DNA of 42,569 nucleotides from Nanobdellota archaeon (lineage in GTDB: Archaea > Nanobdellota > Nanobdellia > SCGC-AAA011-G17 > ARS1403). The position numbers were made by a program, and so were the translations under genes. The notes under the pieces are model-generated. The model did not search any database. It worked only from the letters and a program-made list of their open reading frames with translations, and was not told the origin of the DNA. Where the stretch lies: contig NZBI01000002.1 in NCBI GenBank assembly GCA_002687825.1, positions 21,382 through 63,950 of the forward strand, given 5' to 3'. Below, one piece after another: positions 8,798 through 40,231 of this stretch (position 1 is its first letter; every line of letters begins with the position of its first letter).

Positions 8798-9883
8798 ATG
8801 TCTTTGGTAAAACATGCTATAAATTTTGCAGCTTTTTCTTTTGGTAAAGAGCAACCTATAACTGGGCCTTTAAGGGTTCATTGGGACTTAACAGATTTAT
8901 GTAATTCTAAATGTAAACATTGTGATAGGTGGAAACATAAGAAAAATCCTGAAGAATTAACAACTCAGGAAGGTTTTAAATTATTAAAAGAATTAAAAGA
9001 AATTGGAGTTAGAGCTGTTAGTTTTGCTGGAGCTGAACCATTATTAAGAAAAGATATTTTTGATTTAATTAATTATGCTGTTAAACTAGGATTTAGTACT
9101 TCTATGAACACTAATGCTTTGCTTTTGAATGAAGAAAGAGTTGAAAAATTAGCCAATATTGGATTAGAGACTTTAATTTTCTCCATAGATGGAAATACTG
9201 AAGAAATTCATGATTTTATTAGAGGAGTTAAAGGGAGTTTGAAGAAAAATTTAGAAATAATTCAAACGATTAAAAATGCTAATAAGAGATTAAATAAAAA
9301 TTTAACAGTTCAAGGGACAATTGTTGCGAATAGTAAAAATGTTAGAAATTTGTATGAAACAGTTAAGATGTGCAAAGAAAAAGGATTTGATAAGATAGTT
9401 ATTCAACCTGTTCATTTTGTTGATTTTCATTTTGTGAGTGAAGATTTTATGCATATGAAATCTGAAGATATTCCTATATTGGAAGAACAATTAGAAAATA
9501 TTTGGAGAGATTTTGGAGACTTTTTATCCGTACAGAAAGGATATTTCGATAAGTTTAGAACATTTTTTGAGAATCCTAAAAGTTTGTACAAATATAGATT
9601 TTCATCTGGATTTATTATTGCAGATATAAGAAGTAATGGTGATGTTGTTCCAGATCCTGTTGGAGGGTTGAAGTTAGGGAATTTGCATGAAAAATCCTTT
9701 AAGGAAATATGGTTTGGAGAAGAGGCTAAAGAAGTTAGAAGGAAAATAAAAAATTCAGAATATCCAATGAATTGGTTCTCTTGTGTTCAACCAATAAGTT
9801 TGTTTGCAGATGATGTTAAACATTTAAGGGTGTTAAAGATAATGAATCCTAAATTTTTGAAGCATGCCATATCTAAAGTTTAA
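8798..9883 (+). CDS. Radical SAM protein, SPASM-like C-terminus without cluster cysteines
   Basis: This 361-residue protein has Cys35, Cys39 and Cys42 in CNSKCKHC (CX3CX2C), a SAM-binding FAGAEPLLRKD segment and a SIDG strand, all typical of the radical SAM core. The C-terminal part has the family's layout (NGDVVPDPVGGLKLGNL then FKEIWFG), but where SPASM proteins have a cluster Cys this protein has Asp, and only a single isolated Cys follows. It probably lacks auxiliary clusters. The substrate is unknown. Its TAA interlocks with the stop codon of the convergent gene at 9880 in the sequence TTAA. Confidence 0.84.
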   Translation: MSLVKHAINFAAFSFGKEQPITGPLRVHWDLTDLCNSKCKHCDRWKHKKNPEELTTQEGFKLLKELKEIGVRAVSFAGAEPLLRKDIFDLINYAVKLGFSTSMNTNALLLNEERVEKLANIGLETLIFSIDGNTEEIHDFIRGVKGSLKKNLEIIQTIKNANKRLNKNLTVQGTIVANSKNVRNLYETVKMCKEKGFDKIVIQPVHFVDFHFVSEDFMHMKSEDIPILEEQLENIWRDFGDFLSVQKGYFDKFRTFFENPKSLYKYRFSSGFIIADIRSNGDVVPDPVGGLKLGNLHEKSFKEIWFGEEAKEVRRKIKNSEYPMNWFSCVQPISLFADDVKHLRVLKIMNPKFLKHAISKV

Positions 9884-14292: not shown

Positions 14293-15825
14293 CTACGTAT
14301 TAGTTTCATTATACTGCATTGGTACAGAATCATGGCTTAATAATCGCTTAAACGCGTTTAAGACTGTTGAATCTGGGTTTTTATAATAATATTTGACTAG
14401 TTGTTTCTTTATTGGTGCGCTTGCTGTAGCTAACAATAAATGATTTGCTTTGTTATATTCTTTATTTTCTATAAGATTTTGAATTTTCTTGAAGTACGCA
14501 TCTCTGTAGTATTTTCTTGTGCTTATGTATTTTAAAGAAGGCTCTGCTATCCTAGTTTCTTGAATTAAACTATAAATTTGATCTAGGGTTAGAGGAGATT
14601 CAATTCTTTTAGTTTGATAAGATCTGTCTACCTTTTCTAAGTTTTGCTCGAATCTAACATTGTTGTCTTTTAACCATTCATACAAATGTGTTCCAGGATA
14701 AGGAGTTAATATACAGATAGAAATGCTGTCTGGCTTTACTTCTTTCATTAAATTTACTGTCTTTTTTGCTTCTGCATATGTTTCTACTGGAGCTCCGAAG
14801 ATTATTTCGGCTATTGTTAGTAAATCTAATTTTTTACACATGCTGAATAAATTTCTAATATTATCAGGAGTTATTCTTTTATCGTAAAATTTTAGAACTT
14901 CTGGAGAACCAGTTTCTATTCCAGCCATAACTAAGTAACATCCACGTTTTTTTGCGAATTCTAGCATTTCATGTGTTGAAGAGTTAGCTCTTGATTGGCC
15001 CCACCATCTTAAGTCCATTCTATCTTTTTTTACTAAGTTAGTCCACTCATAAATCCAGCTTTTCCAGCTTCTATTCAATAATAAATCATCTTCGAAGAAA
15101 ATTTCTTTTACTTTATAATCATCTTTAAGATATTTGATTAACTCGAAAACTTTTGGAGCGGACATTTTTCTTATTTTCTTACCGAATGTTGAAAATAAAG
15201 TTGGTTGGCAGAATGTGCAATGGAATGGGCAACCTCTTGCTGCATAAACATGAGTAAATGGGAGTAAGTTCATCCAATTTGAAGGGGTTTTTAGAGTTTC
15301 TTTGATGCTTGGAAATAAATCGTAAGCTGGAAATGGTAAAGTGTCTAGATCTTCTACATATAATCCATGTTCATTTTTAATTATTTTTCCAGATTTGTCT
15401 TTCCATAGGATTCCTCTGATTTTTTTTAGAGGTTTGTTTTTTTCTATAGCATCTGCTAATTCTACTATTGCTATCTCTCCTTCCCCATCTATAACCACAT
15501 CGAAATTTTCGTCTTTTAAGAAATAATCATGAGCTACAGTTGCATGAGGACCACCCACTACTAAACAAGTGTTTGGTAATAAAGCTTTTACTTCCTTTCC
15601 TATATCTAGAACTCCTGGGGCTGTTTCTGTTGAACTATAAATTCCAACCATCTCTGGGTTTTTAGTTTTTAATAAGGAAGTTAGATAACTTTCAGATTCA
15701 TACCTTAAATCTGCTATGAAAATGTTGTGATTTTCTCTTCTTAGAACCGCTGCTATCGAAGCTACACCTAGGGGAACTCCGAATTTTGGTGCTCTTTTTG
15801 AAGGATAGACTAAAACTATATTCAT
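14293..15825 (-). CDS. B12-binding domain radical SAM protein
   Basis: The 510-residue protein has an N-terminal cobalamin-binding-type domain (PSKRAPKFGVPLGVASIAA, LVVGGPHATVAHDYF, VIDGEGEIAI) in residues 1-170. The radical SAM core follows, with Cys199, Cys203 and Cys206 in RGCPFHCTFC. Downstream are IFFEDDLLL, MAGIETGSPEVL and EIIFGAPVET, matching the usual fold. The motif has ordinary CX3CX2C spacing and no intein, unlike its paralogue at 5991. The 80-residue C-terminal region is charged and of unknown use. Related enzymes methylate unreactive carbons or rearrange lipids; the substrate here is not known. A TATA box at 15848-15857 gives it its own promoter. Confidence 0.85.
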   Translation of the reverse strand: MNIVLVYPSKRAPKFGVPLGVASIAAVLRRENHNIFIADLRYESESYLTSLLKTKNPEMVGIYSSTETAPGVLDIGKEVKALLPNTCLVVGGPHATVAHDYFLKDENFDVVIDGEGEIAIVELADAIEKNKPLKKIRGILWKDKSGKIIKNEHGLYVEDLDTLPFPAYDLFPSIKETLKTPSNWMNLLPFTHVYAARGCPFHCTFCQPTLFSTFGKKIRKMSAPKVFELIKYLKDDYKVKEIFFEDDLLLNRSWKSWIYEWTNLVKKDRMDLRWWGQSRANSSTHEMLEFAKKRGCYLVMAGIETGSPEVLKFYDKRITPDNIRNLFSMCKKLDLLTIAEIIFGAPVETYAEAKKTVNLMKEVKPDSISICILTPYPGTHLYEWLKDNNVRFEQNLEKVDRSYQTKRIESPLTLDQIYSLIQETRIAEPSLKYISTRKYYRDAYFKKIQNLIENKEYNKANHLLLATASAPIKKQLVKYYYKNPDSTVLNAFKRLLSHDSVPMQYNETNT

Positions 15826-20278: not shown

Positions 20279-20298
20279 TATATTTTTAGATTTTGGGT

Positions 20299-20994
20299 AT
20301 GATTAACGATTATTTGGAGCCCACAATGATTATACTTGCTGGACCTCCGGGTGCAGGAAAAACTACGTTAGCTGAAGGCATAACTAAAGAAATTCCATCT
20401 TCTTTTCTTTTGGAGAAAGATGTTCTTAATGATAGCCTTTCAGAAGTGAGACCTACAACTAATGGAGATTTGATTACAGAGGAAGAATATTTAGAATCTC
20501 AATATACTGTTATGGAAAGAGATATGATGGGAGATGTTATTAGGTTACCTAAAAGAAGTGAATTTTTTGGTAGACATGTAAGAGATCAGACTTATCGTGC
20601 AATTGTAGATTTAGCATTTAGAAATCTTGAAGTTGGAAAGTCTCCAATTCTTGAATCCTTGTTAACAAGACAATTTACTGTTGATGGTCTTGTTGAAGGT
20701 ATGTTTGAAGCCTTTGAAGATTATAGGACAATTATGATTTTCACTTATATTCCAGAGGAAGCTAGTAGGAAACGTTTAGAAGAAAGATCTGCAAGAGACG
20801 AATATGCAAGAATGAGGGATAAAGAAAAACTCGGAAGTGAAGAAGGTTGGAGAAATTATGTAGCACAACATCCTATTATTCCTCAAAACTTAGATCAATT
20901 TCCTCATTACAAGGTGGATATGCGACAACCTCCTGAAGAATGTGTGGAAGAAGCAGTTAGACAAATTTATTCTAAAGAAGTACTTACTGTATAA
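20299..20994 (+). CDS. P-loop kinase-like protein (AAA_33/zeta-toxin-like fold)
   Basis: This 231-residue protein has a clear Walker A motif, GPPGAGKT at residues 15-22, directly after a hydrophobic strand, followed by LLEKDVLNDSL as expected for small-molecule kinases of the AAA_33/APS-kinase/zeta type. An ERSARDEYARMRD lid-like region lies in the last third. The substrate could be a sugar, nucleotide or other metabolite; no antitoxin partner is present, so a toxin role is unsupported. It is not obviously a glycan gene and seems richer in Arg and Glu than its Lys-rich neighbours. It has its own TATA box. Confidence 0.7.
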   Translation: MINDYLEPTMIILAGPPGAGKTTLAEGITKEIPSSFLLEKDVLNDSLSEVRPTTNGDLITEEEYLESQYTVMERDMMGDVIRLPKRSEFFGRHVRDQTYRAIVDLAFRNLEVGKSPILESLLTRQFTVDGLVEGMFEAFEDYRTIMIFTYIPEEASRKRLEERSARDEYARMRDKEKLGSEEGWRNYVAQHPIIPQNLDQFPHYKVDMRQPPEECVEEAVRQIYSKEVLTV

Positions 20995-27038: not shown

Positions 27039-28025
27039 ATGATAATTTCAAAAACACCATTTAGGATGAGCTTTGTTGGGGGAGGCTCTGATTTAAAGGA
27101 TTATTATCAACATTCTCCAGGTGCAGTTGTTAGTACTACGATTAATAAACATGTTTATGTTACGGTCAATAAGCGTTTTGTGGATAATATAAAAATTGGT
27201 TATTCTCAAACAGAAGATGTTAAAGATGTTAAAGATATAAAGCATAATTTAGTTAGAGAATCTTTGAAAGCGGTTGGTATTAAGAAAGGTATAGATATTT
27301 CTTACTTGTCAGATATGTTGTCTACTAATGAAGGTTCTGGTTTAGGTGGGTCTAGTAGTTTTTTGGTTGGAACTTTAAATGCACTTCATGCTTACAAAGG
27401 AAGACATACAGCATCTAAAGCTTTGGCAGAAAAAGCATGTGAGATTGAAATAGAAAAACTAGGAAATCCTATTGGAAAACAAGATCAGTATGCTGCTGCT
27501 TTTGGAGGCTTTAACCATATTATTTTCAAAGAAGATGGGTCTGTAATTGTCAACCCGATTATTTTTAAAAATAGCACTAAGCAGAAATTAACGAATAATT
27601 TATTATTATTTTATACTGGAATTAATACAACATCTAGTTCTGTTTTGGGAGAACAAAAAGAAAAAACTACTGGAAATAAAAAAATTATAGACAAAATGGT
27701 TGAGCTAACTTATGATGTAAAAAAAGCTCTTGAAAATAATGATTTAACTCAATTTGGAAATCTTTTAGGCACAAATTGGGAATATAAGAAAAAATTAGCT
27801 AGTAAAATTTCTAACTCTGCTATAGATTGTTATTATGAAAAAGCTAAAGGAGCTGGTGCATTGGGTGGAAAGATTCTTGGTTCTGGAGGAGGTGGATTTT
27901 TATTAGTTTATTGTGAGAAAGAAAATCAACAAGAAGTTAGGAATGCACTTTCTGATCTGAGAGAGGCTAAATTTAAGTTTGAACAAGAAGGTAGTAAGAT
28001 AATTTATGTTTATGATCCGGAGTGA
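27039..28025 (+). CDS. hddA: GHMP sugar kinase, D-glycero-D-manno-heptose 7-phosphate kinase-like
   Basis: This 328-residue GHMP kinase begins with MIISKTPFRMSFVGGGSDL, characteristic of the HddA/heptose-kinase branch. It has the ATP-binding EGSGLGGSSSF (about 98-108), the catalytic-Asp region GKQDQYAAAFGG, and a GAGALGGKILGSGGGGF C-terminal motif. In the HddA pathway it phosphorylates heptose 7-phosphate at C1. I chose ATG 27039 because the frame upstream (from 26943) precedes the family's N-terminal motif and is not conserved-looking. Its stop overlaps the start region of the five-domain fusion that holds the next pathway enzymes, which supports the assignment. A fucose- or other sugar-1-kinase role remains possible. 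Confidence 0.82.
   Translation: MIISKTPFRMSFVGGGSDLKDYYQHSPGAVVSTTINKHVYVTVNKRFVDNIKIGYSQTEDVKDVKDIKHNLVRESLKAVGIKKGIDISYLSDMLSTNEGSGLGGSSSFLVGTLNALHAYKGRHTASKALAEKACEIEIEKLGNPIGKQDQYAAAFGGFNHIIFKEDGSVIVNPIIFKNSTKQKLTNNLLLFYTGINTTSSSVLGEQKEKTTGNKKIIDKMVELTYDVKKALENNDLTQFGNLLGTNWEYKKKLASKISNSAIDCYYEKAKGAGALGGKILGSGGGGFLLVYCEKENQQEVRNALSDLREAKFKFEQEGSKIIYVYDPE
28019..28022 (+). promoter_or_regulatory. Shine-Dalgarno-like GGAG deciding the start of the fusion gene
   Basis: GGAG lies five bases before the ATG at 28028. It favours that start over the GTG at 28022, which would overlap the upstream TGA. Confidence 0.5.
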
Positions 28026-28027
28026 AA

Positions 28028-31000
28028 ATGAAAATACTTGTGACAGGAAATCAAGGATATATTGGTTCTGTACTAACTGAAATACTTCTTGGGAAAGGAT
28101 ATGAAGTTGTTGGATTAGATACTGGATACTATAGGGAATGTGATGTTATTGAGAATAACCTGAATGTCAAACAAATTGTTAAAGATATTAGAGATGTTGA
28201 GAAGAAAGATTTAGATGGTATTGATTCGGTTATTCACCTTGCTGCTTTGTCTAACGACCCTTTGGGAGAATTTGATACTAATCTTACAGAACAGATTAAT
28301 CTTAGAGGAACGATAAAATTAGCGCGTTTAGCAAAAGAATGTGGAATTAAGAGATTTGTTTATTCTTCATCACAAAGTATGTATGGAGTTTCTAATACTG
28401 GAGATGAGCTAGAAGAAGATAATAGTGAAAAAAACCCAATAACTGCTTATGCTAGAACTAAATGGGAAGCTGAAAAAGTTTTGAAAAAGCTAGGAACTGA
28501 TGATTTTGTTGTTGTTTGTTTTAGACCATCTACAGTTTTTGGAGCTAGTCCTAATTTGAGATGTGATATTGTCTTTAACAATCTTGTCGGATGTGCTTAT
28601 ACTACTGGAAAAATTGAGATTAAAAGTGATGGTACTCCTTGGAGGCCTGTTGTGCATGTAAGAGATGTTAGTAATGCTTATATTGCTGGCTTGGAAGCCC
28701 CTAAAGAATTAGTGGCAAATGAATCGTTTAATGTTGGTATTGAGAATGGGAATTACACAGTTAGAGATTTGGCAGAGGCAGCACAAAAATCTGTTGAAGG
28801 AAGCGAACTTATTTTTACTGGAGAACATGGAAGTGATTCTAGGACATATAAAGTTTCATTTAAAAAAATATTAACACAATTAAAAGATTATTATAAGCCA
28901 GAATGGAATTTGGAGAAAGGTGGGAAGGAGCTTGTTGAATTTTTTGATAAAATAAACTTTGATGAAGGTAAATTTAGAGGTAGAATTTGTAATAGGTTGC
29001 CTCAATTAAAATATTTGATAGAAAATAAAGAAATTGACGATGAATTTTATAGAACTTTAAAGACTAAAATAAAACAAGCAGTTATACTTGCTGGAGGGAT
29101 AGGAGAGAGATTAAAACCAATTACAGATGAGATACCTAAACCAATGGTGAAATTAAATGACAAAGTGTTTATGGAATCTTTGCTTGAATTATTAAAAGAA
29201 AATGGGATAGAAGAAGTTGTTATTTGTTCTGGATATAAAAGTGAAAAAATAACTGAACATTTCAAGGATGGAAAAAAGTTTGGTTTGGACATAAAGCATT
29301 CTGTTGGTGATGTTGAATGGGACACTGGAAGAAGAATAAAAGAAGCTGAAAATCTATTGGATGAAAATTTCTTATTGATGTATTGCGATAATTATTGGCC
29401 ATTGAATTTGAAAAAATTATTGAGATTTCATGAAAGTCATGGAGCTTCTTTGACTACAACTGTTTTTAGTAATCTAGATAACTCAACAAAAAATAATATT
29501 TTAGTTAATGACCTGGGAAAGGTTGAAGTTTATGACAGAAAAAGAGAGAAAGAAAATTTGAATGGAGTTGATGTTGGTTTCTTTATTGTCAATAAGAAAA
29601 TTATAGAAAATGCTCCTAGAGATAACTTTCATTTCGAAGCAGATTTAATGGGTAAATTAGCTGAGAATGGAGAAGTTGCTGGATACTTAACAGACCATAA
29701 ATATTACAGCATAGGAGATTTGGAAAGACTGCCTATAACTGAAAAGTTCTTAAAACCGAATAAAGTTATTTTTTTAGATAGAGATGGAGTGATAAATAAA
29801 GATACTCCTGAAGGAGATTATGTGAAGAATTGGGATGGTTTTGAATTTTTACCTGGTGTTGTTGAAGCTTTGAAAATCTTGGCAGATAACTGTTATGATA
29901 TTTACATATTAACAAATCAACCTGGAATAAATAAAGGGATGATGAGTGAAGGAGATTTGAAAGAAATCCATGATAACATGATTAATAAATTAGAAGAAGA
30001 AAATGTTGAAATTAAGGGAGTTTATCATTGCCCTCATGACTGGAACGAAGGTTGTAATTGTAGAAAACCAAATCCAGGAATGTTACTTCAAGCTTCAAGA
30101 GATAATCAAATAGATTTGAGAAAGGCAGTTTTTATTGGAGATGATGATAGAGATATTGAAGCAGGTTATAATGTGGGAGTTAAAACATTTTTAGTAGATG
30201 AGAAAAATAGCCTCTTAGATATTGTTAAGGATGTAGTTGGAAGGATAACTACTTGTAGGATCTGTGAAAATCCTAATATCAAAGAATTTTTCGATTTAGG
30301 AGAACAGCCTCCTGCTAATTCTTTATTAGAAAATTTAGAGGAGAAAGATAAGTTTTATCCGCTTAGTTTAAGTTGGTGTCCTGGATGTAATTTGGTTCAA
30401 TTAAACCATACTGTCGATCCTAAAGAGTTATTTTCAAAATATGTTTGGGTTACACAGACTTCAACAGTTGCTAAAGAATATTCTAAAAAATTCTGCGAGG
30501 AAGTTTTGTCAAGAGTTAATTTAGAAGATGGATATGCTTTAGAAATTGCTAGTAATGATGGAACATTTTTAATGCCATTTGTTGAAAAAGGTCATAAAGT
30601 TTTAGGAGTAGATCCTGCTGAAAATATTGTTGAAATGGCCATAAAGAGGGGAGTCCCTACAAAACTTGGATTCTTTGGAGAAGATGTGGCAGAAGAAGTT
30701 ATTGAGGAGCAGGGAAAGCCTAAAGTTGTATTTGCAAGAAATGTTCTTCCTCATGTGGCTAATCTTCATGAATTTGTAAAAGGATTGAAATTATGTTTGG
30801 ATGATAAAGGATTATTAATTTTAGAGATACATTATGCTAAGATAATTCTTGAAGAACTGCATTATGATTCTATCTATCATGAGCATTTATGTTATTTTAC
30901 TTTGAAAAGCTTAGAGAAATTGTTGAATAAATATGGTTTATATGTTCAGGATATTGAAATGAGTCCTATAAGTGGAGGTTCATTTGTATTGTATGTAAAA

Positions 31001-32011
31001 AACAATAAAGAAGAGAAGCCGGTTGTACAAGAATTCAGAGATGCTGAGGAAAAGATAAAATTAAATGAATTTGATAGCTGGCAAGAATTTGCTGACAAAT
31101 CTTACAAACATAGAGATAAATTACTTGAGATTCTTAAAAATGCTGATAAAAATATTGTTGGATATGGTGCTTCAGCAAGAAGTTCAACATTATTGAATTT
31201 TTGTAAGATAACTCCCGAGACACTTCCAATAATTGCGGATCAAAATCCATTAAAACAAAAAAAATACACTGCTGGAACACATATACAGATAGATAGTCCG
31301 GAAATTGTTATGGCCAAAAATCCAGATCAAGTATTTATTTTAGCTTGGAATTTTGCTGATGAAATAACAAAAATTCTTAGGAAAGATTATGGATTTACTG
31401 GAAAATGTATTGTACCTTTACCAAATGATCCTGAAATAAAGGGAGATGGGATTGTGGTAAAAGAAAATGGGATTAATGGTGTGTTTGAAATTGAATTAGA
31501 TCCTAAAAATGATGAGCGAGGATTTTTTATGAGGACTTATGATGAAGAAACATTTAGGAAATATGATTTGAATAAAAATTGGGTACAAGAGAATCATTCT
31601 CATTCTAAAGAAAAAAATATTGTTAGAGGGCTTCACTTTCAACTTCCACCTTATGCTGAAGGCAAACTCATTAGAGTTGTGAGTGGAGAAATATTTTTAG
31701 TTTATGTGGATTTGAGGGAAGGATCTAAGACATTTGGTAAATGGGAAAGTACTATAGTTTCTGCGGATAATAAAAAAATGTTATATGTTCCTAGGGGTTT
31801 TGGGATGGGAATGTGCACCCTAAGTGAGAATTGTACTTTACTGTATAAAATGGATAACGTTTATTCTCCTGATCACCAATGTTCTATAAAATGGGACGAT
31901 CCTGACTTAGGTATTGAATGGCCGGTTAAAGAAGCAATTGTGTCTGAAAGAGATTCAAAGGCTATGAGTTTTAAGGAATTTGTTGAGAAACATAAAAGTT
32001 TGAGACTATGA
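28028..32011 (+). CDS. Five-domain nucleotide-heptose synthesis and modification fusion
   Basis: One uninterrupted 1327-residue frame joins five usually separate enzymes. Domain 1 (1 to ~340) is an extended SDR: Gly7/Gly10/Gly13, YSSSQSMYG, Tyr141 and Lys145 of YxxxK; it lacks the TDE triad of 4,6-dehydratases. Domain 2 (~350-575) is a sugar-1-phosphate nucleotidyltransferase: LAGGIGERLKPITDEIPKPM and a CDNYWPLN strand. Domain 3 (~579-735) is GmhB-like HAD phosphatase: DRDGVIN with Asp584 and Asp586, TNQPGI, and a zinc loop CPHDWNEGCNC. Domain 4 (~738-1135) is a C-methyltransferase of the TylC3/NovU type: N-terminal Cys zinc site, EIASNDGTF at 839-847, IYHEHLCYF. Domain 5 (~1142-1320) is RmlC-like: RGLHFQ with His1203 and VYSPDHQ. 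It probably converts a heptose bisphosphate to a modified, C-methylated nucleotide sugar. It is followed by an SDR gene with ATGA overlap. Confidence 0.88.
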   Translation: MKILVTGNQGYIGSVLTEILLGKGYEVVGLDTGYYRECDVIENNLNVKQIVKDIRDVEKKDLDGIDSVIHLAALSNDPLGEFDTNLTEQINLRGTIKLARLAKECGIKRFVYSSSQSMYGVSNTGDELEEDNSEKNPITAYARTKWEAEKVLKKLGTDDFVVVCFRPSTVFGASPNLRCDIVFNNLVGCAYTTGKIEIKSDGTPWRPVVHVRDVSNAYIAGLEAPKELVANESFNVGIENGNYTVRDLAEAAQKSVEGSELIFTGEHGSDSRTYKVSFKKILTQLKDYYKPEWNLEKGGKELVEFFDKINFDEGKFRGRICNRLPQLKYLIENKEIDDEFYRTLKTKIKQAVILAGGIGERLKPITDEIPKPMVKLNDKVFMESLLELLKENGIEEVVICSGYKSEKITEHFKDGKKFGLDIKHSVGDVEWDTGRRIKEAENLLDENFLLMYCDNYWPLNLKKLLRFHESHGASLTTTVFSNLDNSTKNNILVNDLGKVEVYDRKREKENLNGVDVGFFIVNKKIIENAPRDNFHFEADLMGKLAENGEVAGYLTDHKYYSIGDLERLPITEKFLKPNKVIFLDRDGVINKDTPEGDYVKNWDGFEFLPGVVEALKILADNCYDIYILTNQPGINKGMMSEGDLKEIHDNMINKLEEENVEIKGVYHCPHDWNEGCNCRKPNPGMLLQASRDNQIDLRKAVFIGDDDRDIEAGYNVGVKTFLVDEKNSLLDIVKDVVGRITTCRICENPNIKEFFDLGEQPPANSLLENLEEKDKFYPLSLSWCPGCNLVQLNHTVDPKELFSKYVWVTQTSTVAKEYSKKFCEEVLSRVNLEDGYALEIASNDGTFLMPFVEKGHKVLGVDPAENIVEMAIKRGVPTKLGFFGEDVAEEVIEEQGKPKVVFARNVLPHVANLHEFVKGLKLCLDDKGLLILEIHYAKIILEELHYDSIYHEHLCYFTLKSLEKLLNKYGLYVQDIEMSPISGGSFVLYVKNNKEEKPVVQEFRDAEEKIKLNEFDSWQEFADKSYKHRDKLLEILKNADKNIVGYGASARSSTLLNFCKITPETLPIIADQNPLKQKKYTAGTHIQIDSPEIVMAKNPDQVFILAWNFADEITKILRKDYGFTGKCIVPLPNDPEIKGDGIVVKENGINGVFEIELDPKNDERGFFMRTYDEETFRKYDLNKNWVQENHSHSKEKNIVRGLHFQLPPYAEGKLIRVVSGEIFLVYVDLREGSKTFGKWESTIVSADNKKMLYVPRGFGMGMCTLSENCTLLYKMDNVYSPDHQCSIKWDDPDLGIEWPVKEAIVSERDSKAMSFKEFVEKHKSLRL

Positions 32012-32853
32012 GAATTTTTGTTACTGGGGGAACTGGATTTATTGGTAGGCATGTAGTTGAGAGACTGTTAGAAGGAGATAATGAAATTCTATTGTTAACT
32101 TGTGAAGATAAAATTGAAGGAGTAAACTCTATAGAGGGAGATTTGTCTGATATTGAAAGTTGGAAGGAAAAGTTAGAGAATTTTAAACCTGAAGTTTGCG
32201 TTCATCTTGCATGGGAAGGCATTCCAGATTATGGATATGAAATAAGTTCAAAGAATCTTAAATATGGGTTAGATCTTTTTTCTGTTTTAGCAGAGATTGG
32301 ATGTTCTAAGATAATTGGAATTGGAAGCTGTTGGGAATATGAAAATAAAAATGGTGAACTTAAAGAAGGGGATGTGATTAATCCAAGTTCTCCTTTTAAT
32401 GTAGCAAAAAACTCATTACGTTTAATGGGAGAGACTCTTGCAAATGAGAAAAATATTCAATTTATATGGACTAGGTTGTTTTATGTCTATGGTCCTGGTC
32501 AAAAAGAACATTCTTTAATTCCGCACATAATAAACTGCATTAAAAATAAAGAAGATCCAGAAATCAAAACTCCCAATGCTAAAAATGACTTTGTTTATGT
32601 TGGGGATGTTGCTGATGCTATTTATTCTATAGTTGAAAATGGTGAAAGTTCTATATATAATATTGGTTCAGGGAAATCTACAAGTGTTAAGGAAATCGTA
32701 GAGATAGTTTCTAAACATTATAATTTTGATGTGTTGTTAAAAGATTCTGAAAGTGACGTTGATTTTTGGGCAGATATATCAAAAACAAAAAACGAACTTG
32801 ATTGGGAGCCCAAAACTGATATTTTAGAAGGGATAAAGAAGTTTTTTATCTGA
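32008..32853 (+). CDS. NAD-dependent epimerase/reductase (SDR) with Phe in place of the catalytic Tyr
   Basis: This 281-residue extended SDR starts with VTGGTGFIGRHVVERL (NAD(P) binding). SSPFNVAK at the active site has Phe130 where YxxxK enzymes carry the catalytic Tyr; Lys134 is retained. VYGPGQKEHSLIP and DFVYVGDVADAI follow, as in nucleotide-sugar epimerases and 4-ketoreductases. It overlaps the fusion gene by four bases (ATGA), so it likely completes the same pathway, for example by reducing the 4-keto intermediate after methylation. The missing Tyr makes the mechanism uncertain. Its end overlaps the convergent gene by 8 bases. Confidence 0.78.
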   Translation: MRIFVTGGTGFIGRHVVERLLEGDNEILLLTCEDKIEGVNSIEGDLSDIESWKEKLENFKPEVCVHLAWEGIPDYGYEISSKNLKYGLDLFSVLAEIGCSKIIGIGSCWEYENKNGELKEGDVINPSSPFNVAKNSLRLMGETLANEKNIQFIWTRLFYVYGPGQKEHSLIPHIINCIKNKEDPEIKTPNAKNDFVYVGDVADAIYSIVENGESSIYNIGSGKSTSVKEIVEIVSKHYNFDVLLKDSESDVDFWADISKTKNELDWEPKTDILEGIKKFFI

Positions 32854-34309
32854 TAGATTCCATTCTTCTTAAATTAAATTTTTCAGTTAAGAGAATAAGT
32901 GCTTTCTTGAATGATGGAGATTTGTAAGTTAAGTTTTGAAGCGTTTTATATACTGGTTTGTAGAAGATTATATGGGAAGAAATCTCGCTGATAATCCCGA
33001 ATTTTTTTAATTTCCTAACAAAAGTTCTTCTTAAAATTTCTTTTTCAGCTTTCTTAGTCATTTTAAGCATTTTTCTTCTTTCTTTAAGAGGAAACTCTGA
33101 TGTTGTAAATATAGGATCATCGAAATGAGCTGTATCGTTAAGGTAATCTGGATCTTTTACAACAAATAGTTTATTTTTCTTTATATAATCATATAATTCT
33201 GTTCCTGGGAACGGGACTGCATTATAGAAATTAGCATTATTAACGGGATATTTCAAGGCTAGTTTAATTGATTCTTTTACATCTTCCATAGTTTCTTGAG
33301 GCATACCAACAATAAAAAATAAATTTACTATGTAATCTAATTCGCATGCAATTTTTATTGCTTCATCGATTTGTTCTACAGTTTCTCCTCTTTTTGAAGC
33401 TTTCATTACTTTATTATTTCCACCATCGACTCCGATAGAAATTTCTGAAACCCCCATTTTTTTCATTTGGGTTAGAACTTCCCTATCAACTTTATCTGCC
33501 CTTATCCCATTACATACAGATATTTTTAGATCTTTGAAATTCATTTTACTTATTTCTTCACAGATACCAAGTGTCCTTTCTCTATCAAATGCAAAATTAT
33601 CATCTGTGAAATCTAAATTTCTATAATCTTTGTCATACCAATATTTTACTTCTTCAGCTACGTGTTTAGGAGTTCTCATCCTCATTTGTCTTCCAACTGT
33701 GGTTTTAATTGAACAATAAGTGCAACTATAAGGGCATCCACGAGAAGTCATTATGTTGATTTGCTTTCTTAGATATCTGTTTAACTCAAACTTTTCATAT
33801 TTAGGAAATGATAATCTGGTTACATCTACAAAGGGACCTTCTTGATTTTGTATAACTTTTCCCTTCTCTCTAAAAATTAAGCTGTCTATTTCACTTAATT
33901 TTTTTCCTTTGCACAAAGATAATATTGCGTTTTCTCCCTCTCTTATCAAACCATAATCTGCAATTGATTCTTCGAGTATTTGACTTTTTACTGTGGATGC
34001 ATGGGGTCCTCCAAACAATATATGAATATTTGGAAAATCTTTTTTTATGCTTTTAGCGTAGTCATAAGGAATGTCGTGATGATAAGTGAATATTGAAAAT
34101 CCGATCAAATCTGGTTTGAATTCCTTTATTTTCTTCTTTAATTCTTCTAAGGTATATCCAAATCTCATATCAAAGATTTCATGTTCTATTTTATTATCTA
34201 TTAGAACTTCTGACAAGTAACCAAGAGTTATGGAAGGACTAGATGGTGCTGCGTAGACTCCAGGTAAAGTTGGCATACAAAGTAAAACTCGCTTATAGCG
34301 GTCTTTCAT
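32846..34309 (-). CDS. B12-binding domain radical SAM protein
   Basis: This 487-residue enzyme has a cobalamin-binding-type N-terminal half (PTLPGVYAAPSSPSITLGYLS, ILFGGPHASTVKSQ, IREGENAILSL) and a radical SAM core with Cys192, Cys196 and Cys199 in RGCPYSCTYC. Later segments DFTDDNFAF, SIGVDGGNNKV and FIVGMPQETMED match the family. The C-terminal region ends in a basic stretch. I chose ATG 34309 over a TTG at 34315; the TATA element is 29 bases before it. Unknown substrate; one of four B12-type radical SAM enzymes here. Confidence 0.85.
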   Translation of the reverse strand: MKDRYKRVLLCMPTLPGVYAAPSSPSITLGYLSEVLIDNKIEHEIFDMRFGYTLEELKKKIKEFKPDLIGFSIFTYHHDIPYDYAKSIKKDFPNIHILFGGPHASTVKSQILEESIADYGLIREGENAILSLCKGKKLSEIDSLIFREKGKVIQNQEGPFVDVTRLSFPKYEKFELNRYLRKQINIMTSRGCPYSCTYCSIKTTVGRQMRMRTPKHVAEEVKYWYDKDYRNLDFTDDNFAFDRERTLGICEEISKMNFKDLKISVCNGIRADKVDREVLTQMKKMGVSEISIGVDGGNNKVMKASKRGETVEQIDEAIKIACELDYIVNLFFIVGMPQETMEDVKESIKLALKYPVNNANFYNAVPFPGTELYDYIKKNKLFVVKDPDYLNDTAHFDDPIFTTSEFPLKERRKMLKMTKKAEKEILRRTFVRKLKKFGIISEISSHIIFYKPVYKTLQNLTYKSPSFKKALILLTEKFNLRRMESIR

Positions 34310-34334
34310 TTTCAAAGATATTTTTGCTAATAAA

Positions 34335-34377: not shown

Positions 34378-35580
34378 ATGTTAAATGTAACTTTTTTCGT
34401 AAATCAAAGCTTGGAAAGCCCAAATGGGGTTGGGAGGTATTTTCCTATTGCTAAAGAGTTAGTTAAAAAGAACTACAATGTTAATATAATTACACTACAT
34501 CATAATTTTGAATCTCTAAAACAAAAAACTTTTGTGAAAGAAGGAGTTAATATTTTCTATGTTGGTCAGATGCATGTTTTAAAAATTAATGGTAAAAAAA
34601 TCTACATGAATAAACTCCAATTGATTAGAACAGTTTTTGTATCAACCTTTAGAATGTGCTTGAAAGGATTAGCATTGAAATCTGATGTATTGTATGTTTT
34701 TAAGCCTCAGCCAATTAATGGAATTCCTGCTTTAATTGTTAAATTCTTGAAAAGAAAAAAACTATTTGTAGACTGTGATGATTATGAAGCTTATTCCAAT
34801 AAACTTTCTAAATTTGAGAAAATTTTGTTTGTTCTATTTGAGAATTATCTCCCGAAGTTTGCTGATAAAATTACGACACACAATTTATTTTTAAGAAACA
34901 GATATGAAAAACTTGGAATTAATAAGAAAGAATTGATTTACTTACCAAATGGAATTGACGTTGAGCGCTTTAGTAAAATAGATGAGAATAAAATTTTAGA
35001 ACTTAAAAAAGAATTTAATCTTAAAAACAAAAAAGTTGTCTTGTATTTTGGATCATTAAGTTTGATGTCTGGTCATGCTGTGGATCTATTATTAAAGGCT
35101 TTTAAGATTGTTAAAGAAACTGTGGAAAATTCTGTGCTGGTTTTAGTTGGTGGTGGAGAAGATATAGATTTTTTAAAAAAATATGCTGAAAAATTAAAAA
35201 TTGATTCTATTATTTTTACTGGAGCAGTAGATTCTGAAGATATTCCTTGTTATCTTAAATTAGCAGATGTTACTATTGATCCAATTTATGATACCTTAGT
35301 AAATAAAGCAAGATTCCCATTGAAGATTATTGAGAGTATGTCTTTAGGAGTGCCAGTTGTTACTAGTGATGTCGGAGATCGTAGAAAAATTACAGAAGAT
35401 GGAAGAGCGGCAGTATTGGTAAAACCAGGAGATGAAAAAGAATTATCTAAAGGCATTATTAAAATTCTATCTGACAATAAGTTATCTAAAAAAATATCAA
35501 AAGAATGTGTTGAAATAACAAAGAATTATCATTGGAATAGATTAGTGAATATAATAAATTTACAGCTTGCTAGATTCTAG
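34378..35580 (+). CDS. GT4 glycosyltransferase
   Basis: A 400-residue GT-B enzyme. The N-terminal half has a NQSLESPNGVGRYFPIAKEL acceptor-side region. The C-terminal half has VLYFGSLSLMSGHAVDLLLKA, VGGGEDIDFLKKYAEKL, FTGAVDSEDI and ARFPLKIIESMSLG. The second Glu of EX7E is present and the first is Ala, which is seen in the ARFPxKxxE subgroup of GT4. The sugar is unknown. Its 3' end overlaps the convergent SPASM gene by 21 bases. Confidence 0.83.
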   Translation: MLNVTFFVNQSLESPNGVGRYFPIAKELVKKNYNVNIITLHHNFESLKQKTFVKEGVNIFYVGQMHVLKINGKKIYMNKLQLIRTVFVSTFRMCLKGLALKSDVLYVFKPQPINGIPALIVKFLKRKKLFVDCDDYEAYSNKLSKFEKILFVLFENYLPKFADKITTHNLFLRNRYEKLGINKKELIYLPNGIDVERFSKIDENKILELKKEFNLKNKKVVLYFGSLSLMSGHAVDLLLKAFKIVKETVENSVLVLVGGGEDIDFLKKYAEKLKIDSIIFTGAVDSEDIPCYLKLADVTIDPIYDTLVNKARFPLKIIESMSLGVPVVTSDVGDRRKITEDGRAAVLVKPGDEKELSKGIIKILSDNKLSKKISKECVEITKNYHWNRLVNIINLQLARF

Positions 35581-36651
35581 CAATAGCTTTGGATAGTGTT
35601 TAAGGTTAAATAAAATATTTGTTGACCAAAAACATTCATGAGTGCAAAAACATTTGGTATCTTTAATATATTTAATTACTTCTGTAGCTTTTTCAGAGTT
35701 CCATAATTTTTTAAAATTATAATCAAAATCCCTAATATTTCCTATTTTTTTATCTTCATCTAATAACTCACATGGAAAGACGTCTCCGTTTTCATACATT
35801 ACTCCACTTAATTGCGCTGCATAGCATTGAGAAATAAATTTGTTATTTTTGTAAGTTTTAGAAATGATATCTGCCCTAAGAGCATTTTTTGAAGCACTTA
35901 TTTTTGCTAAAGGAGCATTTTTATTAAACTTATCACTTTGATAACCATTGATAATTCTGCTTGCGATATTTTCATATTTTTTTATATCTACATTAGAAAT
36001 TTGCGGGTTTTTAGGTGTTCCTCTAATTAAATTAACAGAAAAGACAGCTTGTGGAAATTCTTTTTTTACATAAGCCTGGATTTCTTCCATCTTGTCTTGA
36101 TTTTGAGAAGTAACTGTTGCTAATATGCTTATTCCTAGTTTGTTAAATTCTTTCTTAAGTTCGGCTAGAGCTTTGTAAGTATTAGTAGCTCTTTCAAAAC
36201 TATCTTTTTGTCCCCTTATGTCATTATGGTCTTTTCCAATTCCGTCTATTGAAATATTTATATCTAAAGAAGTATTTTTACAATTTTCTAAGATATATCT
36301 AACTCCTTCTACAACTTGTTTTGTAAATGTTCCGTTAGTCGGTATTGCTAATTTTCTTACACCATTATTTTTGCAAAATAGTTCAGCAATTTGTGCTACA
36401 TCCCTTCTAAGGAAAGGTTCTCCTCCGGTAAGAGACATAAACAAAACTTTACCCATGTTTTTAGAGATTTTTTCATATTCTTCAAGAGTCAATTCATCCT
36501 TTTGTGAATTATTAAGTTCTGCAGAATAAAAGCAATGTTCGCAGGTTAAATTACACTTGTTAGTTACGTAACAGATGAGATAGAAAGGATTGTTTGCCCT
36601 TTTATCTAACATTCTCTTTCCTACATTGAAGAGATTAGTTTTAGTGTTCAT
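35560..36651 (-). CDS. Radical SAM/SPASM domain protein, paralogue of the one at 4844
   Basis: This 363-residue protein has Cys33, Cys37 and Cys40 (CNLTCEHC), GGEPFLRRD for SAM binding, NISIDGIGKDH in the core, and a SPASM-like C-terminal region: SQCYAAQ, VFPCELL, CFCTHEC. Motif order and Cys spacing match the 4844-5947 gene, so the two are paralogues on opposite ends and strands of the locus. I chose ATG 36651; the frame extends upstream to 36693, but those residues do not resemble the family and overlap the divergent promoter. A GGGGG stretch five bases before the ATG could serve as a ribosome binding site. Substrate unknown. Confidence 0.84.
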   Translation of the reverse strand: MNTKTNLFNVGKRMLDKRANNPFYLICYVTNKCNLTCEHCFYSAELNNSQKDELTLEEYEKISKNMGKVLFMSLTGGEPFLRRDVAQIAELFCKNNGVRKLAIPTNGTFTKQVVEGVRYILENCKNTSLDINISIDGIGKDHNDIRGQKDSFERATNTYKALAELKKEFNKLGISILATVTSQNQDKMEEIQAYVKKEFPQAVFSVNLIRGTPKNPQISNVDIKKYENIASRIINGYQSDKFNKNAPLAKISASKNALRADIISKTYKNNKFISQCYAAQLSGVMYENGDVFPCELLDEDKKIGNIRDFDYNFKKLWNSEKATEVIKYIKDTKCFCTHECFWSTNILFNLKHYPKLLLESSKL

Positions 36652-36696
36652 TATGCCCCCAAAATATATTTTAACTATTGTTAAACGAATCAAAAA

Positions 36697-36708
36697 CTTT
36701 ATATAAGC
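36697..36708 (+). promoter_or_regulatory. TATA element for the B12-type radical SAM gene at 36729
   Basis: CTTTATATAAGC, centred about 27 bases before the ATG at 36729. It rules out the upstream ATG at 36678, which would precede the promoter. Confidence 0.68.
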
Positions 36709-36728
36709 ATATCGTTTTTCTTGGTAAA

Positions 36729-38213
36729 ATGAAGATTCTGGTATTGTACTGTCGGTTTGGAGGGGATGAGTCCCATATCACAGATATTTATTCTAGGGTC
36801 CCTATGGGTGTTGCTTATGTTGGTGGAGCTTTAAGAAAAGCAGGATTTGACGTTCACTTAAGAGATGGGACTTTTTATCGAAATTGGAGCGAATTTGAAG
36901 AGGATTTAAAAAAAATAAAGCCAGATGCACTGGGAATATCCTTTACTACATCTTTAGAAAAACAAGTTAACAAATACATAAGTATAACAAGAAAAATACT
37001 TCCAGATACCGCAATAATTGCTGGAGGAGCACATTCTACGGCTCATCCTGGAAGTGTACTTGAAGATTTTGATGTTGATTTTGTTATTCATGGAGAAGGA
37101 GAAATAGCATTTCCAGAACTATTAACATTTCTTAATGAGAAAGGTGGAAGAAAGAATGTCATTGGTAAAAAGATTGAGGTTAAGGGTGTAGCTTATAGAG
37201 TTGGTAAAAAGATTGAGGTTAATTCTCAAAGACCTTTTGTAGATAACTTAGATGAACTGGCCTGGCCTGCGAGAGATTTATTGCCGATGGAGAAATATCT
37301 TAAAAATGTACCTTTAATGCCACTTCCCTATCCAAGTACTGGTTTGTTGGTAAGTAAGGGGTGTTTTGGAAATTGTATATTTTGTCAACCAATTCTTAGG
37401 AAGTTATCCGGTAGCAGGAATAGATATAGAGGTGTGGAAGATGTCATAAAAGAGATAAAATATTTGATCAAGACATATAAAATTAAATCTCTTGATATTG
37501 GCAATGACGAACCAACTTATGATAGAAATTGGATGATAAGTTTCTGTGATGCTTTGATAAGAGAAAAAATTAATATTAAATGGGGACTTCCTAGTAGAGT
37601 TGATACTGTTGATCCAGAAATGTTGAATAAAATGGGAAAGGCAGGATGTGTTTACATAGCCTATGGTATTGAATCAGGCTCTCAGAAAATGATGGACAAC
37701 TTGAGAAAGGGAACGAAAGTTGAACAAGCAGAGAAGGCATTGAAATGGACTGAAGAAGCTGGAATATTAGGTAGATCAAACTTAATGGTTGGTTCTATGG
37801 GCGAAACAAAAGAAACAATACAAGAGACTATCAACTTTATAAAAAGAGCAAAGCCAGACCTTATCTTTTGTGCTGCTACAATTCCCCTTTTTGGAACAGA
37901 TTTATATGATATATCCAAAAAAGAAGGTATTTTTGTTGAGGGAACGGATGGGATTACAGATTACGATTTTGGACATTTGAAAATTAAAGATCTTTCTACT
38001 GATGAATTAAGAGCTGGCCTAAATAGGATTGTTAAAACCTATAAGAGAAACCTTGTTATGTTTATGTTAAATCCAAAAATGCTTTTTAGGAAGAGACACA
38101 TTTATATTAGAATGTTCTTGTATTTCTTTTCTTTGATAAACAATAGGAAAGGATTAGTGAAAGTGATGGACCATTATTTTAATTATGGAAGACATGTTAA
38201 ATCTAAGAACTAG
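36729..38213 (+). CDS. B12-binding domain radical SAM protein
   Basis: This 494-residue protein has a cobalamin-binding-type N-terminal domain (PMGVAYVGGALRKAGFDV, IIAGGAHSTAHPGS, VIHGEGEIAFPE) and a radical SAM core with Cys212, Cys216 and Cys219 in KGCFGNCIFC. DIGNDEPTYDR, IAYGIESGSQKM and NLMVGSMGET follow, as in relatives. A 22-base direct repeat inside the gene (37162-37183 and 37201-37222) duplicates GKKIEV at the end of the first domain. Start chosen at ATG 36729 because a strong TATA box lies 27 bases upstream. Substrate unknown. Confidence 0.86.
   Translation: MKILVLYCRFGGDESHITDIYSRVPMGVAYVGGALRKAGFDVHLRDGTFYRNWSEFEEDLKKIKPDALGISFTTSLEKQVNKYISITRKILPDTAIIAGGAHSTAHPGSVLEDFDVDFVIHGEGEIAFPELLTFLNEKGGRKNVIGKKIEVKGVAYRVGKKIEVNSQRPFVDNLDELAWPARDLLPMEKYLKNVPLMPLPYPSTGLLVSKGCFGNCIFCQPILRKLSGSRNRYRGVEDVIKEIKYLIKTYKIKSLDIGNDEPTYDRNWMISFCDALIREKINIKWGLPSRVDTVDPEMLNKMGKAGCVYIAYGIESGSQKMMDNLRKGTKVEQAEKALKWTEEAGILGRSNLMVGSMGETKETIQETINFIKRAKPDLIFCAATIPLFGTDLYDISKKEGIFVEGTDGITDYDFGHLKIKDLSTDELRAGLNRIVKTYKRNLVMFMLNPKMLFRKRHIYIRMFLYFFSLINNRKGLVKVMDHYFNYGRHVKSKN
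37162..37222 (+). repeat. Exact 22-base direct repeat, 39-base period, inside a radical SAM gene
   Basis: A 22-base sequence starting TTGGTAAAAAGATTG occurs at 37162-37183 and again at 37201-37222. The offset is 39 bases, so the frame is kept. Both copies encode GKKIEV. It looks like a small in-frame duplication in the loop between the B12-binding and radical SAM domains. Confidence 0.8.
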
Positions 38214-38274: not shown

Positions 38275-39258
38275 ATGTCAAGAATTAGTAAATATAAATT
38301 AAAAAAACTGATTAAAAATATTAGTCTTTTGGTGGTAGTTGTAATTATTTTTTTGAGTTTAGGAGAATTAATTGCTAGATTTGCTAATGTTGAAAAGAGT
38401 GAATATGATGTTTTCTTTATGGAGGGAAATTCTAACTTATCTAATCAATTAATTCCGAATGCAGAGGGATATTTTAAAGATCATTATACAAAAATCAACA
38501 AAGATGGATTTAGAGATAATAAAGATTATAGTGTTAAAAAACCAAGAGATGTGTTAAGAATTATTAGTTTAGGTGCTTCATTCACATTTGGAGAAGGTGT
38601 GGATTTAGAAGATACTTACTCAAAACAATTAGAGGTTTCTTTGAATAATTATTGTGAAGATAAGATTGAAGTTTTGAATATGGGTGTTAGCGGTTATAAT
38701 ATGGTTTATGAATTAGAGACGTTAAAAGAGAAAGGTTTGAAATATGGTCCAGATTTGATAATGGTTAACCTATTTTCTAGACCTAATGTGCAATATAGAT
38801 ACTTTCCTCTTAAAGATTCTTTAAAGAGACATTCTTATTTGTTCGCTTATTTACGTAAGAAGTATCAGATAGTGAATTTAAAATATTTAACAGCAAAGTC
38901 TGAACAAGTTGAAGGAGGGGAGATTTTTGTAAATACAATTGGAAGAGAACAAAATGAAAAAACTTTACAAGAATTTATTGATATTGGTAAGGGAAAAGAT
39001 GTTTCGATTTTATTTTTGTACTTCCCTATTTTAGAAGATGAAGAAGATTTTGTTGATCCAGATGTGGAATTTTATAAGAATATGTTAGAATACTTAGAGA
39101 GTGTTAATGAGGATAATTTAGATTTAACAGATGCATTTGTGGGGAAGAACTTTGAAGATTTGTGGGTTTCTAAAAACAATCACCACCCTAATAGAAAGGG
39201 ACATGAAATCGCAGCAGAAGAATTACATAATCATATTGTAAAAAAAATAGAATGTTAA
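38275..39258 (+). CDS. Membrane-anchored SGNH-fold protein with altered catalytic residues
   Basis: A 327-residue protein with an N-terminal membrane helix (residues ~14-30) after a basic start, so the rest is likely outside the cell membrane. The domain starts with RIISLGASFTFGEG, the GDSL block I with Ser102 but Ala101 instead of Asp, and ends with NNHHPNRKGH, the block V in which Asn302 replaces the usual Asp and His304 remains. These changes suggest weak or different activity compared with esterases. It lies one base before its tandem paralogue at 39260. A role in removing or adding acyl groups on the glycan is possible but unproved. Confidence 0.78.
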   Translation: MSRISKYKLKKLIKNISLLVVVVIIFLSLGELIARFANVEKSEYDVFFMEGNSNLSNQLIPNAEGYFKDHYTKINKDGFRDNKDYSVKKPRDVLRIISLGASFTFGEGVDLEDTYSKQLEVSLNNYCEDKIEVLNMGVSGYNMVYELETLKEKGLKYGPDLIMVNLFSRPNVQYRYFPLKDSLKRHSYLFAYLRKKYQIVNLKYLTAKSEQVEGGEIFVNTIGREQNEKTLQEFIDIGKGKDVSILFLYFPILEDEEDFVDPDVEFYKNMLEYLESVNEDNLDLTDAFVGKNFEDLWVSKNNHHPNRKGHEIAAEELHNHIVKKIEC

Positions 39259-39259
39259 A

Positions 39260-40231
39260 ATGAGAGTTAAAACTAAAAGAAAAATACAGGGATTTTCGTT
39301 AATGTTAATAACAATCCTGATTTTTTTATTCGTTGGAGAGATTTTGGCTAGAGCAAGTTATGATTCTATTTTTAATTATGATACTGAAATGTGGAGATAC
39401 GCTTCTTTTGCTAAACAACCTTCTGAAAACCTCCTTATCTCTCACGAACACAAGCCTGATGTAGATATTGATCTTTATGGTGCAAATGTAAGAATTAACT
39501 CAAATGGATTGAGAGATTATGATTACGAATATGAAAATGTAGAGAATGTGAAAAGAATTTTAGTTTTGGGCGATTCAGTTACTTTTGGATGGGGGGTTGA
39601 ATTTGATAAGATCTACTCTAAACTTTTGGAAAAAAAATTGGAAGATACTCAAGTTATCAATACAGGAGTAGGGAATTATAATACTCAAATGGAAGTTGCA
39701 TTTCTAAAGGAAGAAGGGATAAAATATGATCCAGATATCATAATCCTGGGCCATTACATTAATGATGCAGAAATGACTCCAGAAGTTAGTAATTATTTTT
39801 TGAAAAGAAAATCTTACCTTTACGGATACTTGTGGGGGAAATATCGTAATTCTGTGGGGAAACTTTCTGAAAAAGGGAATTTTTTGGATTATTATAACAA
39901 TTTGTACAAAGAAGATTTTGAAGGAAGAGTTCTTTTTGAGGATGCTATTAATGAACTTAAAGATATTTCAAAAGAAAAAGGCATTCCTGTAGTGATAGTT
40001 ATAATTCCAGAATTACACAAACTTGACCCTTATCCTTTTGAATCTGTTAATGAATTCATTAGAACCTTTGAAGATGAAAACACATATGTTCTGAATGTTT
40101 TGCCTTATTTGCAAGGTTATGAACCAGAATCTTTGTGGGTGAGTGGAGAAGATGCGCATCCTAACGAGATTGCAAATGATATGATAGCCGAGGCAATTTA
40201 CGAAAAATTAATAAAGGAAAATTTAGTCTGA
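39260..40231 (+). CDS. Membrane-anchored SGNH hydrolase-like protein
   Basis: A 323-residue paralogue of the preceding protein, with a basic N-terminus and membrane helix at ~10-28. The catalytic blocks are complete: GDS at 104-106 in LVLGDSVTFGWG, an LGHYINDAE segment, and EDAHPNE with Asp298 and His300. It probably acts as an esterase or acyltransferase outside the membrane. Its ATG follows the first gene's stop after one base, so they are cotranscribed. The small DUF5989-like gene follows 6 bases later. Confidence 0.82.
   Translation: MRVKTKRKIQGFSLMLITILIFLFVGEILARASYDSIFNYDTEMWRYASFAKQPSENLLISHEHKPDVDIDLYGANVRINSNGLRDYDYEYENVENVKRILVLGDSVTFGWGVEFDKIYSKLLEKKLEDTQVINTGVGNYNTQMEVAFLKEEGIKYDPDIIILGHYINDAEMTPEVSNYFLKRKSYLYGYLWGKYRNSVGKLSEKGNFLDYYNNLYKEDFEGRVLFEDAINELKDISKEKGIPVVIVIIPELHKLDPYPFESVNEFIRTFEDENTYVLNVLPYLQGYEPESLWVSGEDAHPNEIANDMIAEAIYEKLIKENLV

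Follow-up and report, generated by a model that had tools for sequence, protein, structure and literature searches.

A five-enzyme fusion gene in a Nanobdellota archaeon and its probable origin in a GDP-heptose operon

In a draft genome of a Nanobdellota archaeon, a small organism of the DPANN type, one open frame encodes five sugar-nucleotide enzymes in a row. Is such a gene real, where did it come from, and what would its product make? The DNA analysed here, called the window, is a stretch of 42,569 nucleotides (nt) from assembly GCA_002687825.1 (contig NZBI01000002.1, positions 21,382 to 63,950; G000:C2:21382-63950), and positions below are those of the window. The genome is a 775-kb draft in 25 contigs, 87% complete; an archaeal small subunit (SSU) rRNA was not found in this draft. 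The five-enzyme fusion in the assembly is real, and it is new as a domain architecture. It probably represents a modified GDP-heptose operon (HddA - GmhA - SDR1 - NT/HAD - MT - RmlC - SDR2) that has collapsed into one chain, with a GDP-C-methyl-heptose for a surface glycan as its product.

The frame is free of stops from a GTG at 28022 to the TGA at 32009-32011. GGAG precedes the ATG at 28028, which is the likely start and gives a protein of 1327 amino acids (aa). A chance open frame is excluded, since no stop-free run in 200 shuffled windows exceeded 150 codons. Pfam and NCBIfam searches place the enzymes in the order short-chain dehydrogenase/reductase (SDR1), nucleotidyltransferase (NT), a haloacid dehalogenase (HAD) phosphatase of the HAD-IIIA/GmhB-like type, a zinc-binding C-methyltransferase (MT) and an RmlC-type epimerase. 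The Pfam spans are Epimerase aa 3-237, NTP_transferase 351-558, HAD 579-724, Methyltransf_13/23/14 743-1132 and dTDP_sugar_isom 1148-1317. An earlier reading made from the sequence only had described five sugar-nucleotide enzymes in one stop-free frame, with a GHMP kinase directly upstream and an SDR (SDR2) starting in an ATGA overlap downstream; all of this is borne out, the kinase ending 2 nt upstream of the fusion (Table 1). All five domains are complete, and almost all positions conserved in their families are retained. AlphaFold models of residues 1-740 and 574-1327 have mean pLDDT (predicted local distance difference test) values of 87 and 83, and the expected domains are folded; the HAD part of the second model is poor, and the alignment behind it held one HAD row only.

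At each junction a whole C-terminus is followed by a whole N-terminus, with hardly any linker. The end of SDR1, '...CNRLPQLKYLIENKEIDDEFYRTLKTK', passes straight into 'IKQAVILAGG' of the NT domain. At the next border the HAD domain ends '...SLLDIVKDVVG' and continues 'RITTCRICEN'; the separate MT gene of a woesearchaeal relative (L039) starts MKRITECRIC where the window reads VGRITTCRIC. The MT domain ends '...CIVPLPNDPEIKGDG' and continues 'IVVKENGINGVFEI', and rmlC of L039 starts MLIKEKSLKGVFEI. A joining of four truly separate genes by an assembly or sequencing error is very improbable. That the sequence comes from one incomplete draft in many contigs, and that relatives have separate genes, speaks for such an error. 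An error would need to affect all three independent borders, however, and whole termini are kept at each of them with the start codons replaced. The neighbouring genes of relatives often lie in different reading frames. Codon-position GC is even along the fusion (GC3 0.17-0.24 in every domain), so a frameshift is not indicated. The gene also lies inside a long contig, and partial fusions occur in other genomes.

Table 1. Features of the fusion locus (window positions), and partial fusions of sugar-nucleotide enzymes in other genomes
Feature	Position or source	Strand	Basis or remark
Five-enzyme fusion gene, 1327 aa	28028..32011	+	Open frame, Pfam and NCBIfam
SDR1 domain (aa 1-340), Cj1427-like, putative GDP-heptose 4-dehydrogenase	28028..29047	+	PDB, Foldseek, motifs
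Junction SDR1/NT	29048..29062	+	No stop, no in-frame ATG; stop and start in relatives
NT domain (aa 346-573), HddC-like sugar-1-phosphate nucleotidyltransferase	29063..29746	+	PF00483
HAD domain (aa 575-735), GmhB-like heptose 1,7-bisphosphate 7-phosphatase	29750..30232	+	PDB, motifs
Junction HAD/MT	30233..30244	+	ATG of separate MT gene replaced
MT domain (aa 740-1137), sugar C-methyltransferase with zinc-binding domain	30245..31438	+	PF08421, PF13489, PF08484
Junction MT/RmlC	31439..31450	+	GGAG 31442-31445, GTG 31454: possible internal start
RmlC-like 3,5-epimerase domain (aa 1142-1327)	31451..32008	+	TIGR01221
HddA-like kinase	27039..28025	+	Open from TTG 26943, likely start ATG 27039
SDR2, 281 aa, probable 4-keto reductase	32008..32853	+	PF01370; ATGA overlap with fusion
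Partial fusion SDR-MT	L045 (Bacteriovorax), G193		
Partial fusion SDR2-SDR1-CmcI	G115		
Partial fusion NT-HAD-uridine-kinase-like	L040		
Partial fusion HAD-NT-SDR	G084, G073		
Partial fusion MT-RmlC-like	G350		
Partial fusion RmlD-MT	G006		
Partial fusion SDR-aminotransferase	G037, G067		

The origin of the gene can be read from its relatives. Operons of separate genes are found in a member of the Woesearchaeota (L039, JAFCEA010000003.1), a Thermoplasmatales metagenome-assembled genome (L040), a member of the Nanoarchaeota (L041) and genome G202. They contain hddA, gmhA, sdr1, nt-had, mt, rmlC and sdr2 in the gene order of the window, which has one gene for four of these; L041 begins at gmhA, where its contig starts, and the G202 set is spread over two contigs (L102 and L103). 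The separate proteins match the window at identities of 67-74% for SDR1, 49-60% for NT and HAD, 62-69% for MT, 59-67% for RmlC and 51-58% for SDR2. NT-HAD is a single gene in nearly all relatives, so the new joins in the window number three. Compared in this way, the window gene reads as the ancestral operon minus three gene borders. The order of the domains departs from that of the pathway, as had been pointed out from the sequence, because the fusion retains the order of the ancestral operon, which the separate-gene relatives preserve. The sequence-only reading would have been refuted by close relatives that have the identical genes apart, with stop codons where the domains meet. This applies in part only: stops are present at exactly these borders, but in genomes of other orders or phyla and at 50-74% identity, so the separate genes reveal how the fusion arose and not an error. 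Among 103 genomes of the window's own taxonomic order no other close copy of the set was found; the best match lies above 1e-81, at 37% to MT. Relatives of SDR1 at 60-74% identity are dispersed over bacterial and archaeal phyla. Because of this scatter, and of the lack of a close set within its own order, the operon was probably acquired laterally and then fused.

Neither 1,322 genome searches (which overlap) nor pattern scans of genome and viral contigs turned up another fusion of five parts, in agreement with the sequence-only reading, which knew of none; the collection scans used short exact patterns and did not extend to metagenome contigs, so the rarity is not proof of uniqueness. Large open-frame values in G500 and G606 suggested further fusions, but the DNA has ordinary stops there, and the G500:C105 stretch is identical to L039. 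The two-domain NT-HAD fusion, mentioned in the same reading, is indeed common. Contig C19 of the window's genome carries another fusion of this pair with the domain order reversed, cut by the contig end (L115 3-1061, minus strand).

The closest partial counterpart is an SDR1-NT-HAD fusion in a member of the Pacearchaeota (G408 = L101/L037, JACPGZ010000015.1). It has the first three domains in the same order, is 61% identical to the window, and ends with HAD. At its junction, unlike that of the window, ~25 aa are missing from the end of SDR1. In a tree of concatenated SDR1-NT-HAD sequences the window does not group with this fusion, although the approximately unbiased (AU) test does not reject the alternative (p 0.121). 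Tree and junction taken together, a common origin of the two fusions is not favoured. Other partial fusions (Table 1), in small archaeal and some bacterial genomes, join sugar-nucleotide enzymes likewise, but have two to three parts against the five of the window.

What the chain makes depends first on SDR1. By sequence and fold it looks like a Cj1427-type 4-dehydrogenase, so a 6-deoxy sugar is not implied. Its top PDB sequence match is 6vo6 (E 2.3e-33; 118.8 bits versus 83 for the next), and Foldseek ranks 1-6 are all 6vo6/6vo8, Cj1427 of Campylobacter jejuni, one of them with GDP-D-glycero-D-mannoheptose. SDR1 keeps Y141/K145 (Tyr-x3-Lys), and the Asp-Glu pair of dehydratases is absent. The motif of 4,6-dehydratases is STDEVYG; at this site SDR1 has SSQSMYG and Cj1427 has NTNSGYG, so SDR1 should not remove water. 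Cj1427 acts on C4 of GDP-D-glycero-manno-heptose, which it oxidises with the co-substrate 2-oxoglutarate (PMC10680097). A 4,6-dehydratase giving a 6-deoxy C-methyl sugar, as in the route proposed for virenose (PMC3539893), would suit the neighbouring domains, as C-methyltransferases and RmlC epimerases usually use 4-keto-6-deoxy sugars. This role of SDR1 is rejected on the motif and on the nearest structure, and we regard it as highly unlikely.

The kinase, NT and HAD components resemble enzymes of heptose pathways. The kinase has as its top PDB match a D-glycero-D-manno-heptose kinase (3k85, 3e-49), and shares 62-65% identity with its counterparts in L039/L040/L102, where the genes are separate. 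The NT domain matches heptose-pathway nucleotidyltransferases (6jq8/5xhw) and retains GGxGxRLxPxTxxxPKPM, with V for P in the next KPF. The top PDB match of the HAD domain is E. coli GmhB (2gmw); in the alignment to it DRDG, TNQ, the zinc ligands C-x-H...C-x-C and GDDxxD are retained. Between them NT and HAD thus have their signature, metal and zinc ligands intact. The domain scores 135 against TIGR01656, above the cut-off of 84.

The MT domain has zinc-binding, S-adenosylmethionine (SAM) and C-terminal Pfam domains above their cut-offs, and retains YHEH, a Tyr of the catalytic region and NDG. Its nearest solved structures are MtmC (4rv9), KijD1 and TcaB9, which are C-3 methyltransferases. The RmlC domain scores 185.5 bits against TIGR01221 (cut-off 155.75). 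The active-site His, Lys, Tyr and Asp are retained, and the usual AHG reads GMG, without its His. The RmlC proteins of sister operons (L039, L040, L041, L054, L103, L108, L111) lack this His as well; proteins of this kind are perhaps a subfamily for C-methylated 4-keto sugars. SDR2 has orthologues, 51-58% identical, at the same place in L039/L040/L041/L103, and in L108 the orthologue is joined to SDR1. It has Ser107-Phe130-Lys134 where S-Y-K is expected. Phe is found in most orthologues, and MlghC, the heptose C4-reductase of C. jejuni, is reported to have the same Ser-Phe-Lys set (PMC7949155); the idea that SDR2 is defective through this change is therefore rejected.

A route can be proposed from these activities. 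HddA would phosphorylate heptose 7-phosphate at C1 to give heptose 1,7-bisphosphate, from which the HAD domain would take off the 7-phosphate. The NT domain would then attach GMP, giving GDP-D-glycero-manno-heptose, which SDR1, with bound NAD, is expected to oxidise to the 4-ketone as Cj1427 does. The MT domain would place a methyl group from SAM beside the ketone. C3 is the likelier site, because the nearest relatives of MT are C-3 methyltransferases. The RmlC domain may next invert C5, since a methylated C3 could, by its chemistry, no longer epimerise. SDR2 would then reduce C4, and the GDP-C-methyl-heptose would serve the numerous glycosyltransferases nearby in making a surface glycan.

Glycosyltransferases, flippases and radical SAM proteins abound in the window, which is a surface-glycan region. 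The radical SAM proteins number seven, several of them with B12-binding domains, and are encoded among the glycosyltransferases, at 4844-5947, 5991-8762, 8798-9883, 14293-15825, 32846-34315, 35560-36693 and 36678-38213. The second of these (plus strand) is a 923-aa B12-binding protein split by an intein that carries a LAGLIDADG endonuclease domain. Two adjoining proteins at 38275-39258 and 39260-40231 (plus strand) have weak to moderate matches to GDSL lipases.

Several points weigh against this explanation, a collapsed GDP-heptose operon with the route proposed above. The fusion is carried by one genome only. The NCBIfam equivalog cut-offs of HddA, HddC and GmhB are all missed: the kinase scores 167 bits against NF049969 (cut-off 600), which is yet its best family by far; the NT domain, presumed to transfer GMP, scores 98.8 against NF049965 (cut-off 300); the HAD domain scores 159 against PRK08942 (178) and 127 against TIGR00213 (149.6). 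HddA, NT and HAD each have 1-2 departures at almost invariant positions, and SDR1, MT, RmlC and SDR2 have none such. Finally, gmhA was not found in the window or in the 87%-complete genome with PF13580 and a GmhA query. The same query was positive in G202, G100, G115, G408 and the same-genus G001. The separate-gene operons do have gmhA wherever they are covered, and in L039, L040, L102 and L111 it sits between hddA and sdr1, with TIGR00441/PRK13936 as the best families.

These points could mean that gmhA has gone and that the kinase, NT and HAD activities have shifted to another sugar phosphate, the product being a C-methyl hexose or another sugar. Such a shift would account for departures confined to these three components. 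It is unlikely all the same. A GmhB-type 7-phosphatase beside HddA makes little sense without a heptose, and the sister operons that bear gmhA have 50-74% identity to the window. The gene may lie in the missing 13% of the genome, as its presence in G001 would allow, and the replacements seen, R to K, P to V and Y to H, are mild. The genome encodes transketolase and transaldolase, so sedoheptulose 7-phosphate is plausible. Both lie in a compact pentose-phosphate cluster on contig C5 (L117 1816-9855), with a HAD protein, a 6-phosphogluconolactonase-like protein, glucose-6-phosphate dehydrogenase and a phosphomutase. A phosphoribulokinase/uridine-kinase-like P-loop protein stands beside NT-HAD, or is fused with it, in other genomes (L040 9044-10891, L111 3779-4435, L048, L064, L068). 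A P-loop kinase-like gene of the window (20293-20994) was considered as its counterpart and set aside, since the P-loop alone matches. A GDP-heptose route remains probable. Of the assembly line for a branched, modified heptose suggested from the sequence, the analysis supports a C-branched product, probably reached by way of GDP-heptose; the line is incomplete in the window, where gmhA is absent beside hddA.

Does fusion bring the enzymes more than a common gene? A pentafunctional chain may carry out GDP-heptose formation, C4-oxidation, C-methylation and epimerisation, passing intermediates between its domains towards a C-methyl-heptose undescribed in archaea; on present evidence this is less likely than not. 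There is a substantial possibility, short of an even chance, that the fusion is real and passive, with enzymes that are tethered, or partly made separately, and do not channel. The chain follows the old operon order and not the pathway, and the linkers are almost nil. Partial fusions with varied partners recur, as is expected of drift in small genomes. At the MT/RmlC border a GGAG stands 8 nt ahead of an in-frame GTG (aa 1143), a pair that could yield a separate RmlC. This internal start is weak evidence, however, because several similar motif/start pairs occur in frame elsewhere in the fusion.

Every part of the chain, and the type of pathway, is already known; what is new is the five-part architecture, from one draft genome. 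It offers a sugar-nucleotide operon in nearly complete collapse to one gene, which can be compared with relatives that are unfused or partly fused. It also offers a ready five-enzyme protein with which to ask if unstable 4-keto sugars flow faster, or are better protected, when the enzymes are fused, and it suggests that uncultivated DPANN archaea have C-methyl-heptoses in their surface glycans. The literature consulted gave nothing relevant on C-methyl GDP-heptoses or such fusions in DPANN archaea.

Known systems resemble the chain in different respects. The AROM protein of fungi likewise has five enzymes of one pathway, the shikimate pathway, in one chain (PMC9074039); the enzymes and the pathway are unrelated, and the likeness is an analogy only. 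MtmC, TcaB9 and KijD1 share with the window MT the domain set, the catalytic Tyr and the Glu-His region, but they stand alone and act on dTDP-deoxyhexoses, whereas the window MT is fused. The nearest pathway is that of C. jejuni (GmhA, HddA, GmhB, HddC, Cj1427, MlghB, MlghC), in which kinase, phosphatase, guanylyltransferase, 4-dehydrogenase, RmlC-type epimerases and C4-reductase act in that order (PMC10680097). The same activities are predicted for the window, including a Cj1427-like SDR and a Ser-Phe-Lys reductase; the window RmlC stands closer to true RmlC than to the C. jejuni heptose epimerases. The C. jejuni route as described has no C-methyltransferase and all of its enzymes are separate; methylation would be the addition made by the window.

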